DNA of 39,425 nucleotides from a virus. The translations under genes were made by a program, and so were the position numbers. Where the stretch lies: IMG/VR virus record IMGVR_UViG_3300046011_002771, positions 1 to 39,425 of that record. One strand, 5' to 3'. Shown in pieces: positions 23,526 through 39,183 of the stretch. Numbering within the stretch: position 1 is the first letter of the stretch; every line of letters starts with the position of its first letter. Under the pieces are notes generated by a model that saw only the letters and a program-made list of their open reading frames with translations, had not been told where the DNA came from and did no database searches.

Positions 23526-23802
23526 TTATAAGTTAAACACAGATGGCACCATTCCTGATTATGTAGAAGATGGTGGCTATTTACCAACAGACGGTGATTC
23601 GTTTAATATGATTTTACTTGGTGTTTCAAAAGACGGTGCTGATATTTCAGAAGCCCAGGCTGTATTTTCTACAGAACCAGAAGCACTTGTTTATGTTAGA
23701 ACTTATCGTTCAGATGTAATTTATATTGACCCAATAACTGGTCAAGAAGAAAAATATATTATTGCTGATGCAATAGCAGATTTGTTTGCTAAACTAAACT
23801 AA
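23506..23802 (+). CDS. Small hypothetical protein
   Basis: 98 aa from GTG 23506 with ribosome site AAGGAA, overlapping the previous gene by 20 bases. Beta-rich, acidic; reads MAKKVISYKLNTDGTIPDYV. No family recognised; a tail accessory role is possible. Confidence 0.65.
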   Translation: MAKKVISYKLNTDGTIPDYVEDGGYLPTDGDSFNMILLGVSKDGADISEAQAVFSTEPEALVYVRTYRSDVIYIDPITGQEEKYIIADAIADLFAKLN

Positions 23803-34056: not shown

Positions 34057-34472
34057 CAGTAATTGTTATGTCTTAAGTGATGTTTCATTGCTTCGCAAGG
34101 GGTTTTGTATCTGTGTTGGATATATTTGTATGCGTGGAGGATTTGTATGGCGGGCTCTTTGCTAGTTTCCTTAAGCCTTTGCCCAATACCAAATGCCGAT
34201 GAACCTTGCTTGTTCTTTGCGAGGTGGTCATAACGAGCCTCTTTAGTAAAGATATAATCAAGACATCTCCATTCCATATTACGCCACCCATATCCTACCC
34301 AAGCGTAGCGTTTTGCTAAGGCTTTATTTGCCCTCTTCTCTTCCATTGTTGCCTGATTTCTTCCTTCGATTATCGGCGTTCTGTTTTTGATTAAGGGTTG
34401 GAGTAGGGGTGGCGCACTCGCTATGAGTATCACGCCAGCCACCACACTCACCGCAAGGGGGCTCGTTTTCAT
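34056..34472 (-). CDS. Lysozyme/transglycosylase-like exported protein
   Basis: 138 aa. Residues 5-25 are a hydrophobic signal/anchor. WRCLDYIFTKEARYDHLA has the catalytic-type Glu78, followed by GSSAFGIGQ (90-98), the SLT/Gp13-like lysozyme pattern. Cuts peptidoglycan glycan strands; complementary to the M15 endolysin or used during entry. Confidence 0.7.
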   Translation of the reverse strand: MKTSPLAVSVVAGVILIASAPPLLQPLIKNRTPIIEGRNQATMEEKRANKALAKRYAWVGYGWRNMEWRCLDYIFTKEARYDHLAKNKQGSSAFGIGQRLKETSKEPAIQILHAYKYIQHRYKTPCEAMKHHLRHNNY

Positions 34473-34822
34473 TACGCAATTCTACCAACTTTCTTCCTAA
34501 CACGCGAGGTCATCTGCCTCTCGCTCTGAATTAACTTTAAGTTCATAGTCTTTTTAGCCATAGTCCTACGCTCAAATGCTGTAAGCCCGCCCCATATGGA
34601 GCCAAGATGTAGGTTCTCATCTTCTAGTCCTTGCTTAAGACATAACTCTCGGACAGGACATTGATTACATATTGATATGGCCTCAGCCATTCTTAGAACT
34701 TGAAGTTTCTTTTCGTCTTCTATTTTATAGAAGTAATACCACCATAGTTCAGGGTCAGGATGATTACCGCAAGAGGCTTTCTCGTGCCAGTTAGGAGGGA
34801 CGGAGTAAGAACCTTGTAGCAT
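34472..34822 (-). CDS. WhiB-family Fe-S transcription regulator
   Basis: 116 aa. Cys18, Cys52, Cys55 and Cys61 (CNQCPVRELC) are the 4Fe-4S ligands and GSIWGGLTAFER (78-89) is the WhiB turn; the C-terminus is Lys/Arg-rich. WhiB proteins are restricted to Actinobacteria and their phages, so this is the best host indicator. Likely modulates host sigma-factor activity. Confidence 0.9.
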   Translation of the reverse strand: MLQGSYSVPPNWHEKASCGNHPDPELWWYYFYKIEDEKKLQVLRMAEAISICNQCPVRELCLKQGLEDENLHLGSIWGGLTAFERRTMAKKTMNLKLIQSERQMTSRVRKKVGRIA

Positions 34823-36257: not shown

Positions 36258-36416
36258 TTATTTCTCCTGTCTTAAGATATAATTGTGCGCACACTCTGTT
36301 AATGGCGTTAAGCACTCGCCACACATAACGGGCGAGTAAGTAATCGCTCCGCCTGTTGCTCCGTTGCCGAGGTCTTTATTGTTAAGCGTGACTGTGTAAT
36401 AGTCGTAGCCTTTCAT
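36258..36416 (-). CDS. Small hypothetical protein with CxxC
   Basis: 52 aa from ATG 36416 (ATGA overlap) to TAA 36258; contains MCGEC (31-35) and ends LRQEK, encoded by the start motif of the next gene read in another frame. No family. Confidence 0.6.
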   Translation of the reverse strand: MKGYDYYTVTLNNKDLGNGATGGAITYSPVMCGECLTPLTECAHNYILRQEK

Positions 36417-36742
36417 TTACTTGCCTCTTCTTTCTCTGAAATCATTTGGCCTGTGCGTATGCCAGCGATTAGACTTCGCAAGGTGCGCTCCGCCTCTGCC
36501 TTAGTTCCTCCGAGGTAATCACTAAACCCGCGAGGCTCCCAATGCCCCGAGCCATATTTGCTACCGCCCGAGAAATGGACACGAAAAGCCCGCCCGTAAG
36601 TCTTGCTCCCTTCCTGTAAAACTAAATGCGGGCGCTTGTTTGATTCGTAGGTGTCTTCCACCTCTTCCCCTTCTAGTAAGGGTCTTACCAATTCTTCAAG
36701 CACTCCAACTAATCGGCGTAAATCCTCCATTGTTGTATTCAT
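36413..36742 (-). CDS. Hypothetical protein of early operon
   Basis: 109 aa behind CTTAAGACAGGAG (36754-36766). N-terminal helix (MNTTMEDLRRLVGVLEELVR), a beta-rich Gly/Ser middle, and a C-terminal helix. Preceded by the three-way-junction element at 36795-36848. Confidence 0.65.
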   Translation of the reverse strand: MNTTMEDLRRLVGVLEELVRPLLEGEEVEDTYESNKRPHLVLQEGSKTYGRAFRVHFSGGSKYGSGHWEPRGFSDYLGGTKAEAERTLRSLIAGIRTGQMISEKEEASK

Positions 36743-36794
36743 TTTTTTTATTTCTCCTGTCTTAAGTAGTAAAGCGAGACTCTCCCGCCTTACT

Positions 36795-36848
36795 CGTGCC
36801 CCGTTATTGTCTCGCTCAATTCGCCTTCTGTAAAGGGTGCGGGGCTGT
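36795..36848 (-). ncRNA. Unknown three-way-junction RNA element, copy A
   Basis: GCCCCG (36845-36840, minus) pairs with CGGGGC (36803-36798). Inside, CCUU-UACAG-AAGG and AUUG-AGCGAGA-CAAU form two hairpins. Homologous to copy B: shared ACAGCCCC, GCACC, TACAGA(A/G)GGCG and CGGGGCACGA. No CUGANGA core, so not a hammerhead. Might be tRNA-like and a substrate of RNase P/Z, or another ribozyme class. Confidence 0.55.
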
Positions 36849-36856
36849 GAGTTGCC

Positions 36857-37003
36857 TCACTTTTTGCGCTTGTATCTCCTAACTATTTTTAGAGTAATAA
36901 CTGCGAGGGTAATTCCTGCGATACTGTGCCAAGGTAGATAAATAGCCCCTAAGAAACTATCTAATTCCAACCCGTATTCGTTAGTTATGTTTAGGTTTAA
37001 CAT
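36857..37003 (-). CDS. Small membrane protein
   Basis: 48 aa from ATG 37003 to TGA 36857. Starts MLNLNITNEYGLELDSFLGA; a single hydrophobic helix (about 17-39), then RRYKRKK. Preceded by the start motif at 37013-37025, which is translated as the KTGEK end of the upstream gene. Confidence 0.65.
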   Translation of the reverse strand: MLNLNITNEYGLELDSFLGAIYLPWHSIAGITLAVITLKIVRRYKRKK

Positions 37004-37004
37004 T

Positions 37005-37361
37005 TTATTTTTCTCCTGTCTTAAGTAGTGAGTTCCCTAAATTGTGGAGTGTTTCTCTTGCGATGATGTCGAAAGGTAGAGAGCCCTGCCCCTGTAGTAT
37101 TTGAGCGATGAATAGCCCTGCGGTTTCGCTGACTTTATCTCTTACTAGGTCGGTCACTTGCTCCGCTAGTGTTTCCCATTCTTCGCGCAACTTATCCGAT
37201 AAGGCCACCATACCTTCGGCCTCTCGCGCCTCTCGCATTAATTCGGTGTAGGTTTCTTGGTCATTTTCTGCCACCATCATCCACTCGGTGGCGAATTGCT
37301 CGGCTAGAATAAAGCGCTTTGCCATATCGCTAACCGTTTCTGTCTGTGTTTCTGTAGTCAT
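37005..37361 (-). CDS. Acidic helical hypothetical protein
   Basis: 118 aa, Glu/Thr-rich, all helical (REAREAEGMVALSDKLREEW). Ends LLKTGEK, whose codons are CTTAAGACAGGAGAAAAA, i.e. the next gene's ribosome module. No family recognised. Preceded by element B. Confidence 0.65.
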   Translation of the reverse strand: MTTETQTETVSDMAKRFILAEQFATEWMMVAENDQETYTELMREAREAEGMVALSDKLREEWETLAEQVTDLVRDKVSETAGLFIAQILQGQGSLPFDIIARETLHNLGNSLLKTGEK

Positions 37362-37404
37362 TTTCTTTTCTCCTGTCTTAAGTAATAAGGGAACTCTTCC
37401 CCTA

Positions 37405-37456
37405 TCGTGCCCCCGCTAGGTCTTGAACCTGCGCCCTCTGTAGGTGCGGGGGCTGT
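37405..37456 (-). ncRNA. Unknown three-way-junction RNA element, copy B (tRNA-like)
   Basis: GCCCCCGC (37453-37446, minus) pairs with GCGGGGGC (37416-37409), 8 bp. The 29 bases between hold CCU-ACAG-AGG and AGG-UUCAAGA-CCU, the latter like a T-loop arm. Followed by ACGA. It resembles a tRNA lacking the D-arm and half the anticodon arm. Too short for a functional tRNA. Confidence 0.55.
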
Positions 37457-37460
37457 TGCT

Positions 37461-37910
37461 CTATGCGCTTGCCTCTTGGGCCTTGAGATACTTATCCATT
37501 AAGGCTTGAACCTTTGGCTGAAAAATTTCGTCATCTCTGCGCCATAGTTCCGAGGCTTTCGCCCGTTGTGCTTTCATCTCGTTTGTTTGATAGACCTCGG
37601 ATTGAATCTTGACTTTCTCCTCGAATGCTATTTCGCGCAATTTTTGAGCCTTGCTCATTAGTTCCTGCGCTTGCTTTTCTAGTTCGTTTGCCTCTTCTCG
37701 CGCCTTGGCTTCAATGGCGTCGGTCTTTTCAAGATTAGCGCGAATGAATGCGATACGGATTTCTTCTTCTTGGCAGTATGCGTTGCGGTATTCTTCCGAC
37801 GCTTTAGCGCTCTCTAGTTCGCGGTAAGCCTTCCAGAATGCGCGGGCCCTTGGCTCGCTTAGATTTTCTTTTGCCCACCAGTATGGATTAACTTTTTCGG
37901 TTGTTTCCAT
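37461..37910 (-). CDS. Coiled-coil hypothetical protein
   Basis: 149 aa, nearly all one long charged coiled coil (EAKAREEANELEKQAQELMS around 70-90). Start fixed by CTTAAGACAGGAG (37918-37930). Lies between a hammerhead upstream and element B downstream. Confidence 0.7.
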   Translation of the reverse strand: METTEKVNPYWWAKENLSEPRARAFWKAYRELESAKASEEYRNAYCQEEEIRIAFIRANLEKTDAIEAKAREEANELEKQAQELMSKAQKLREIAFEEKVKIQSEVYQTNEMKAQRAKASELWRRDDEIFQPKVQALMDKYLKAQEASA

Positions 37911-37944: not shown

Positions 37945-38010
37945 AGGCTCATCAGTCGGGGCACTTACCCCGAGACCGTTGCCCCGATTTCTCGGGGCTA
38001 GGTTTCGCCT
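37945..38010 (-). ncRNA. Type II hammerhead ribozyme HH-C
   Basis: Read on the minus strand: stem II 5' arm AGGC (38010-38007), GAAA (38006-38003), stem III closed with GCCCCGA-GAAA-UCGGGGC inside ACC/GGU, then GUC with the cut after 37974. Stem I is a perfect UCGGGG-UAAGUG-CCCCGA (37973-37956), then CUGAUGA (37955-37949) and stem II 3' arm GCCU (37948-37945). Every conserved core base is present, including the A-U closing pair of stem III. It starts 5 bases after the SprT gene and ends before the next ribosome module. Confidence 0.92.
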
Positions 38011-38014
38011 TGCG

Positions 38015-38638
38015 CTAGTTTGCCTTAATAAACAACTCCCCGCAACCCTCACAGGTCACACCCTGCTCAATGACTTTAGCACTTGCGCGAATTGATGAGC
38101 ACTTACAGTTCGCTTTAAGGAGGTTCTTATTTCTTCCTGCGCCCTTCTTAACTTGCTCCGAGTCTGCCATAAGTGAGAGCGCCTCCTCGATTAGGGCTAG
38201 GGCCTCGGCCCATCTATTGGCGCACTCGTCCGACACCTCGGTGTTGCTCCATCCAATGCCCTTGGCTTGAGTGATGGTTAGACCTAGGCTCTCGGCTGTG
38301 GCCTTGAATTTCTGGTTGTGATACCCGTCACCGCTCACGCCCTTAATTCCCGCCTGTAGGTCTAAGGAATGGGCCACCTCGTGGAGGAGGGTCCCGAGGA
38401 TGGCGCGGGCGCCTCTCTCGAAGTAGTTCGCGCTTATCATTATCTCGTGGAAATTATCCTCGCCCGATTTCCAGATTTTGGCGTGCGTGAAGTGGCCCAT
38501 TGTGCGCCCTGTTTTACGGGTGACTAGAATCGTGGCGCGGGGAGCGCCTGTCTTCTCTCTGATAATCTCGTGAGCATTTTCGAGAGCGCTAGCGATGTTC
38601 GATAGTCTCTCGGTCTTCTCTAGTGTTGCGCTGGTCAT
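38015..38638 (-). CDS. SprT-like zinc metallopeptidase
   Basis: 207 aa from ATG 38638 (MTSATLEKTE), chosen because the ACAGGAG module precedes it; a longer frame to 38698 would run through the ribozyme. HEVAH (86-90) is the zinc catalytic motif, and two C-terminal Cys pairs (NCKC, CEGC) form a zinc ribbon. SprT/Spartan proteins cut proteins bound to DNA; phage versions are common but of unclear target. Confidence 0.85.
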   Translation of the reverse strand: MTSATLEKTERLSNIASALENAHEIIREKTGAPRATILVTRKTGRTMGHFTHAKIWKSGEDNFHEIMISANYFERGARAILGTLLHEVAHSLDLQAGIKGVSGDGYHNQKFKATAESLGLTITQAKGIGWSNTEVSDECANRWAEALALIEEALSLMADSEQVKKGAGRNKNLLKANCKCSSIRASAKVIEQGVTCEGCGELFIKAN

Positions 38639-38664
38639 TTCTTCTTCTCCTGTCTTCTTGGCTT

Positions 38665-38721
38665 GGCTCTTCAGTTGGTAGGGGGCCACCCTATCCAAGA
38701 CCGCCCGAGGGCGGTTTCGCC
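38665..38721 (-). ncRNA. Type II hammerhead ribozyme HH-D
   Basis: Minus strand: stem II GGC (38721-38719), GAAA (38718-38715), stem III ACCGCC-CUCG-GGCGGU, C at 38699 with the cut after it, stem I UUGG-A-UAGGG-UGGCC-CCCUA-CCAA (38698-38675), CUGAAGA (38674-38668), stem II GCC (38667-38665). Position 7 is A instead of U, which hammerheads tolerate. The stop codon of the upstream gene (38723-38721) overlaps stem II, so ribosomes finishing that gene would disturb the fold. Confidence 0.9.
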
Positions 38722-38882
38722 TAGGCTTTCTTAACGGTTTGAATCGCTATCTCGAGGCCCTTGATTTTCCCGTATAGGGTCTGGCTGTAATAATCCGCGC
38801 TGTTGCCCTCGGCGTGATAATCTTCCTGTTCTTCCTTGATTCTTGAGATTTCCATCTCAAGCATTTTCACTAGTTCTTTCAT
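38721..38882 (-). CDS. Small coiled-coil protein
   Basis: 53 aa from ATG 38882 to TAG 38721; reads MKELVKMLEMEISRIKEEQE, helical, ends QTVKKA. Flanked by hammerheads HH-E upstream and HH-D downstream, so cleavage would release it as a monocistronic RNA. No family. Confidence 0.7.
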   Translation of the reverse strand: MKELVKMLEMEISRIKEEQEDYHAEGNSADYYSQTLYGKIKGLEIAIQTVKKA

Positions 38883-38910
38883 TTCTTCTTCTCCTGTCTT
38901 TCTGTAGCCT

Positions 38911-38966
38911 GTCTCATCAGTAGGGGGAGGCTAGCCCGCCCTAGACCCCCTCACGGGGGTTTCGAC
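38911..38966 (-). ncRNA. Type II hammerhead ribozyme HH-E
   Basis: Minus strand: stem II GUC (38966-38964), GAAA (38963-38960), stem III ACCCCC-GUGA-GGGGGU, C at 38944 with the cut after it, stem I UAGGG/CCCUA with inner GG/CC (38943-38921), CUGAUGA (38920-38914), stem II GAC (38913-38911). Stem II is only 3 bp. It begins at the end of the 60-aa gene (stop at 38966-38968). Confidence 0.88.
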
Positions 38967-39148
38967 TATTTCTCAATAACACCGCAAGCAATTAGAAAAC
39001 GAATTGAATCAAAACGAGGGTTCATCGCCTTAAACTGATGTGCCAAGCCCTTGGCTACAAAATCAACTACTTTCTTCTGGCTTTCTTCAACTGTCTCTCT
39101 ATCTACGAAAATTGAGCGGGCTATTAGTTCATAATCTTTTCTAGTCAT
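38966..39148 (-). CDS. First gene of leftward early operon
   Basis: 60 aa, MTRKDYELIARSIFVDRETV and on, helical and charged, ending FLIACGVIEK. No family recognised. Start behind AAGACAGGAGAAAAGAAA. About 40 bases of leader separate it from the predicted transcription start; its stop overlaps the start of HH-E. Confidence 0.75.
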   Translation of the reverse strand: MTRKDYELIARSIFVDRETVEESQKKVVDFVAKGLAHQFKAMNPRFDSIRFLIACGVIEK

Positions 39149-39156
39149 TTTCTTTT

Positions 39157-39183
39157 CTCCTGTCTTAGCGTGTATCTCACGCT
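39157..39183 (-). promoter_or_regulatory. Leader hairpin abutting ACAGGAG module
   Basis: AGCGTG-AGATA-CACGCT (39183-39167 on minus), a perfect 6-bp stem, runs directly into AAGACAGGAG. It replaces the ribozyme at the 5' end of the operon, where no upstream cistron needs separation. Confidence 0.6.

Follow-up and report, generated by a model that had tools for sequence, protein, structure and literature searches.

Hammerhead ribozymes and a tRNA-like element occupy the same intercistronic junctions in related actinophage-like contigs

Introduction

What bacterial and phage hammerheads do has, to our knowledge, been an open question since 2011. In that year, clustered type II hammerheads with a pseudoknot between loop I and the tail were described, several of them in series and flanking single (pro)phage genes, and that paper both proposes the cutting of phage transcripts into gene-length messages and reports cleavage of the tandem hammerheads, in E. 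coli as well as in vitro (Perreault et al. 2011, PMC3088659). An earlier, sequence-only reading of the locus described here knew of no serial intercistronic array of this kind; that claim to novelty is ruled out, as such arrays were published there together with cleavage data and an identical proposal for mRNA processing (PMC3088659). Our array shares with the published ones the type II fold, the pseudoknot, the serial arrangement and the flanking of single genes, and it differs in that the hammerheads are mixed and swapped with tRNA-like elements, which the excerpt does not describe (PMC3088659). It differs further in its setting, namely freshwater actinophage-like contigs, where it surrounds an SprT gene and is kept across a phage clade.

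In mitochondria, tRNAs or tRNA-like folds lying between genes (tRNA punctuation, t-elements) mark the RNase P and RNase Z cuts that release the mRNAs, and the two enzymes also free the mascRNA and menRNA. Phage substrates of RNase P other than tRNAs include bacteriophage M3 RNA and the C4 RNA of P1/P7 (PMC11143913). RNase P measures the distance from elbow to cut along the stacked T and acceptor stems (PMC4919913), and the bacterial enzyme favours RCCA ends (PMC11143913), a preference also given in the excerpted text of PMC12710915.

Here we analyse a viral stretch of 39,425 nucleotides (IMG/VR record IMGVR_UViG_3300046011_002771, positions 1 to 39,425), referred to as the window, together with related phage loci.

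Results

Three type II hammerheads in a leftward operon

The operon runs on the minus strand around a gene for an SprT-like metalloprotease of 207 aa (38015..38638; PF10263, E = 1.8e-6), preceded by genes of 60 aa (38966..39148) and 53 aa (38721..38882) and followed by genes of 149 aa (37461..37910), 118 aa (37005..37361) and 109 aa (36413..36742), all five recognized by open reading frame and conservation and lacking a Pfam match. One extended ribosome-binding site, AAGACAGGAG and often CTTAAGACAGGAG, precedes nearly every gene of the operon; it recurs in relatives and is found on the minus strand of the window at 39165, 38899, 38655, 37926, 37378, 37021, 36762, 36272 and 35333. A WhiB-like protein, an actinophage marker, is encoded at 34472-34822 (transcription factor family PF02467, E = 7.6e-12). 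The search for a leader promoter-like site of the operon gave a single candidate, with a score at chance level.

The sequence-only reading had placed type II hammerheads with intact cores in three minus-strand gaps, each cut falling between two genes, and the covariance search on that strand bears this out. Hammerhead 1 (38911..38966) follows the 60-aa gene, hammerhead 2 (38665..38721) lies between the 53-aa gene and SprT, and hammerhead 3 (37945..38010) stands directly after SprT. The Rfam model Hammerhead_II (RF02276) finds exactly these three, at 38967-38903, 38722-38656 and 38010-37941, with 43.3, 35.1 and 23.3 bits and E-values for the whole record of 2.3e-9, 3.2e-7 and 3.9e-4; hammerhead 1 alone passes the curated gathering cut-off of 37 bits, and the whole record holds no fourth match. 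All three alignments span model positions 1-66, the full length, and the score of hammerhead 3 is reduced because its stem III has an internal loop. A structural descriptor requiring the full core and closed stems I and III returned 38966-38911, 38721-38665 and 38010-37945, plus one weak AT-rich chance match elsewhere in the record. CUGANGA, GAAA, the A-U closing pair and C17 are present in all three, and the Rfam alignments show stems I and III closed and stem II open. With core bases and C17 in place, the cut sites given earlier are correct, the predicted positions being 38944/38943, 38699/38698 and 37974/37973 for hammerheads 1, 2 and 3. The pseudoknot between loop I and the tail has 6 bp in hammerhead 1 (UAGCCU/AGGCUA), 4 bp in hammerhead 2 (UGGC/GCCA) and 4 bp in hammerhead 3.

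Each hammerhead is intergenic, with the next start codon 26-34 nt downstream. For hammerheads 1 and 2, stem II shares a base with the stop codon of the preceding gene, the last of the codon being the first of the stem, from which we infer that a terminating ribosome would sit on these two ribozymes. The three gaps contain no genes except a 55-codon frame across hammerhead 3, which is probably spurious. Intrinsic terminators were considered as an explanation of the hairpins and rejected as far as the hammerheads are concerned, since a terminator scan of the minus strand called none at any of the three; the scan flagged 37403-37388, further downstream.

Conservation of the hammerheads in related phages

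Related loci were collected from viral contigs by means of the SprT-like protein, which yielded 197 relatives, from which 32 and later 80 loci were kept; they are metagenomic contigs, many of them incomplete, and the two sets have some contigs in common. One related contig, IMGVR_UViG_3300016665_000074 (L022/L151), is likewise exactly 39425 bases long, with an SprT 76% identical to that of the window, which is probably a coincidence. No relatives were found among GTDB genome contigs, and the only ones found in GenBank were OX376640 and OX376641, which are phages E7 and F5, both cultured on 'Ca. Planktophila' (PMC10202952).

The kept SprT loci contain about 42 distinct hammerheads, besides one chance match in L073; conservation of the core among these 42 is circular, as the descriptor demands it. 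Free of this circularity is the slot directly after SprT, where an intact hammerhead stands in 23 of 23 rows of the window's SprT clade, a strong conservation across related phages. That reading had also taken the differing stems around a kept core as covariation, which holds among the relatives: stem I position 2 occurs with all four Watson-Crick pair types and stem II varies between GC, TA and CG. The covariation extends to the pseudoknot, which appears as UAGCCU/AGGCUA, UUGGUCU/AGACCAA, CUAGUC/GACUAG and UGGCU/AGCCA; it covaries among relatives of the hammerhead 1 class and is weak or short in the hammerhead 3 class. Neither E7 nor F5 has a type II hammerhead.

The sequence of window hammerhead 2 (38721-38665) is also found at L005 3966-4022 and L024 3907-3963, beside different genes, as if cassettes of gene plus element were shuffled between phages.

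A covarying tRNA-like element in the next two gaps

Although the sequence-only reading stood as regards the ribozymes, their type, cut sites, hairpin ends and covariation, though not their novelty, it missed tRNA-like elements, named A and B, in the next two gaps downstream of hammerhead 3. In both, an outer stem encloses two hairpins, in the layout 5'-GCCCC(C)G, mini-hairpin, hairpin with a seven-base loop, A, CGGGG(C), ACGA, followed by a further hairpin and the ribosome-binding site. Element A (37409..37453, minus strand), between the 149-aa and 118-aa genes, has an 8-bp acceptor stem, a mini D-hairpin and a 3-bp T-arm with loop UUCAAGA; its predicted RNase P cut is 37454/37453 and its fold z-score -4.7. 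The hairpin after it (37384..37405, minus strand) lies directly upstream of the ribosome-binding site and is kept in relatives; it is the hairpin flagged by the terminator scan, and termination may therefore occur there. Element B (36798..36845, minus strand), upstream of the 109-aa gene, has an acceptor with one mismatch, a mini D-hairpin and a 4-bp T-arm with loop AGCGAGA, and its predicted RNase P cut is 36846/36845. Just 5' of it stands a hairpin, GUGAG-GCAA-CUCAC (36847..36860, minus strand), of the kind that precedes most type B elements, and another folds after it (36769..36793, minus strand); the stretch of element B with its flanking hairpins has a fold z-score of -4.3.

In an alignment of 12 type B sequences, from whose L016 row one base was removed to hold column register, all three helices covary: 98.3% of cells are paired, 7 pairs are changed on both sides, and there are 15 double-changed cells against a mean of 3.5 in shuffled alignments and 0-1 in slid controls. 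The covariance model R1, built from type B sequences only, found, across the window and 32 SprT loci, 42 confident copies, among them type A, for which E-values, rough owing to short calibration, went down to 3.5e-10. Every one of the 42 is in gene-sense orientation, and a clear gap sets them off from the next score. Element A scores 40.1 bits (E = 3e-9, equally rough) and element B, with its own row in the model, 78.7 bits; a second set of 63 loci gave 103 matches, and both E7 and F5 carry the element, at 80.4 and 75.7 bits, in the regions 1383-1437 of E7 and 23535-23589 of F5.

In layout the element is the acceptor/T-arm half of tRNA; its D-like hairpin is small and an anticodon arm is missing. 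Using a parser that gave no preference to 12, we counted acceptor, linker and T-stem as exactly 12 layers in 39 of 41 parsed distinct elements, reached through different splits (8+1+3, 7+1+4, 7+2+3, 6+2+4, 7+0+5 and 8+0+4). Among distant copies after SprT, 12 layers were found in 16 of the 16 parsed, including 7+5 and 5+7 splits, other distant copies having loops that depart from the set rule, e.g. UUCACAA, so that they were left unparsed; a few elements have 11 layers. The 5+0+7 split occurs with a tRNA-type loop, UGCAAAU, in L199 and L210. T-type loops mostly read NNCRAGA, and most elements have C56 and R57-A58 (NNCRANN), with UUCACAA, GUCGUGC and AGCGAGA lying off the canonical T-loop. The D-like loop usually has one conserved G rather than GG, invariant in A3 and nearly so elsewhere, which together with C56 of the T-loop fits the expected G19-C56 elbow pair. 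Nearly all elements have an A at both -1 and 73, which keeps the stem open at its base. At the 3' end the tail reads RCGA, RCUA or RCAA; no parsed element has a C at position 75, and a CCA end is therefore absent.

The two devices exchange at the same junctions

Of the 62 tRNA-like elements 60 are followed by a ribosome-binding site and start codon, as are 50 of the 51 hammerheads, the three exceptions lying near contig ends. In the slot directly after SprT, 26 rows have a hammerhead, 42 a tRNA-like element (part of these labelled from model matches or by reading the sequence) and 4 neither. The hammerhead occupies this slot in the window's clade and one other clade, the tRNA-like element in the other relatives, and no more than two changes of state are needed on the SprT tree. 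Exchange is also seen in the slot directly before SprT: among the members of one closely related group, it is filled by a hammerhead in L060 and L117 but by a tRNA-like element in L099 and L100. Because the devices replace each other at the same junction, they probably do the same job.

The four rows with neither device after SprT are L193, L197, L204 and L172, three of which have a plain strong hairpin. Distant relatives further show a TGTGA-N6-TCACA palindrome of CRP/GlxR type with a TTGACA-like -35 box behind it, in most cases immediately downstream of the tRNA-like element in the slot after SprT (L173:4093, L174:4649, L192:4668, L205:4538, L088:3883 and, on the minus strand of L052, reverse-complement position 2670); this is perhaps a phage promoter under a CRP-like operator.

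Comparison with known RNA families

ARAGORN found no canonical tRNA gene in the window, and Rfam no other known RNA family above cut-off in the operon. Assignment of element A or B to a known Rfam family was rejected, all matches falling below cut-off, and RAGATH was dropped as a name for the element, there being no Rfam RAGATH match. The nearest family is DUF2693-FD (RF02926), probably described in a 2017 paper by Weinberg, which has a 7-bp outer stem, a small inner hairpin and a 5-bp hairpin with the identical loop AGCGAGA. It matches weakly in L028 (21.8 bits, E = 0.0031) and G016 (28 bits, E = 6.6e-6), the best element thus staying below the gathering cut-off of 44.5, and the window's own elements give no match. 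A true DUF2693-FD RNA (76 bits) lies on the minus strand of a viral contig, at L121 1313-1361; its position, 7 nt downstream of an 83-aa reading frame, resembles that of the window's tRNA-like elements.

The element is also like mascRNA/menRNA (RF01684) in its acceptor, small D-arm and T-arm; that model gives element A 15.8 bits on the sense strand and another match 10.9 bits, below its cut-off of 42.5, and describes an animal nuclear RNA with a CCA tail, whereas our element is intercistronic in phages. Mitochondrial punctuation differs in that here the setting is a bacteriophage, the anticodon arm is missing and the element is interchangeable with ribozymes, and M3 RNA and C4 RNA are single RNAs, in contrast to the serial intercistronic elements found here. 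The covarying tRNA-like structure is the new part of the finding, a candidate RNA family without an Rfam counterpart, although it may have been published before.

Discussion

We consider it probable that the leftward operon (from 39148 towards 36400) is punctuated by two interchangeable intercistronic cutters, hammerheads and a tRNA mimic for host RNase P and RNase Z. In three gaps, the hammerheads would fold during transcription and cut the polycistronic mRNA themselves, leaving the upstream message with the stem III hairpin and a 2',3'-cyclic phosphate at its end and the downstream message with the stem I hairpin and a 5'-OH at its start; the earlier reasoning that both new ends bear hairpins stands. 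In the two further gaps, host RNase P would cleave the mimic on the 5' side, and a second cut, past the discriminator base, may be made by RNase Z, releasing the mimic. The message downstream would then begin with a hairpin followed by the ribosome-binding site, and the hairpin at 36847..36860 would end the message upstream of element B. We infer that the hammerheads cleave in this phage; RNase P, perhaps also RNase Z, would be what cuts the mimic, and the benefit would be stable, hairpin-ended single-gene messages.

The main point against RNase P is that the mimic has no RCCA, which weakens this reading. RNase Z avoids CCA ends, and the absent CCA would for that reason fit RNase Z. The non-canonical T-loops, the elements with 11 layers and the single G of the D-loop likewise count against an RNase P mimic, and the same position at a junction does not prove the same function. 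We put forward a wider claim tentatively, as something that may or may not hold in full: in a large group of freshwater actinophages, polycistronic mRNAs would be punctuated by a minimal tRNA mimic that recruits host RNase P and RNase Z, and this mimic and the hammerheads would be functionally interchangeable, each having taken the place of the other at the same junctions.

The missing RCCA would also suit an arrangement in which only the hammerheads cut and the tRNA-like element is an uncleaved barrier, or a structure bound by a protein or a tRNA enzyme, that protects message ends or tunes translation. A 12-layer stack flanked by hairpins could alone block exonucleases. Such a barrier needs no fixed tRNA-type helix length, T-loop-like loop or conserved unpaired A at -1 and 73, however, and the junction at which the element stands is in other phages held by a ribozyme that cleaves itself, which makes this explanation unlikely. 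Less probable again is that the conserved elements are mainly recombination junctions at which gene cassettes are shuffled among phages. Near-identical elements beside different genes, as with the hammerhead shared by the window, L005 and L024, fit this explanation and count against ours, and the relatives have a variable 8-kb island (PMC10202952). Recombination needs identity, though, whereas the sequences of the elements diverge while compensatory changes keep pairing and core, and their matches lie on one strand only. A third possibility, that the tRNA-like element cleaves itself and represents a new class of ribozyme, is very improbable, for although Weinberg and colleagues reportedly found new ribozyme classes beside hammerheads in 2015 and the element stands where hammerheads do, the bases it conserves correspond to the elbow and discriminator of tRNA and do not make up an internal loop of catalytic appearance, and the 5+7 forms have almost only the tRNA geometry in common.

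Returning to punctuation by two cutters, replacement of a hammerhead at the same junction by an unrelated RNA resembling an RNase P substrate is comparative evidence for intergenic cutting as the selected function. The tRNA-like element adds a candidate to the RNA families and may be a phage counterpart of the tRNA punctuation of mitochondria, and its presence in E7 and F5, which grow on 'Ca. Planktophila', makes the proposal directly testable. The sequences thus suggest that these phages divide a long message into single-gene messages by two means, either of which can stand in for the other.
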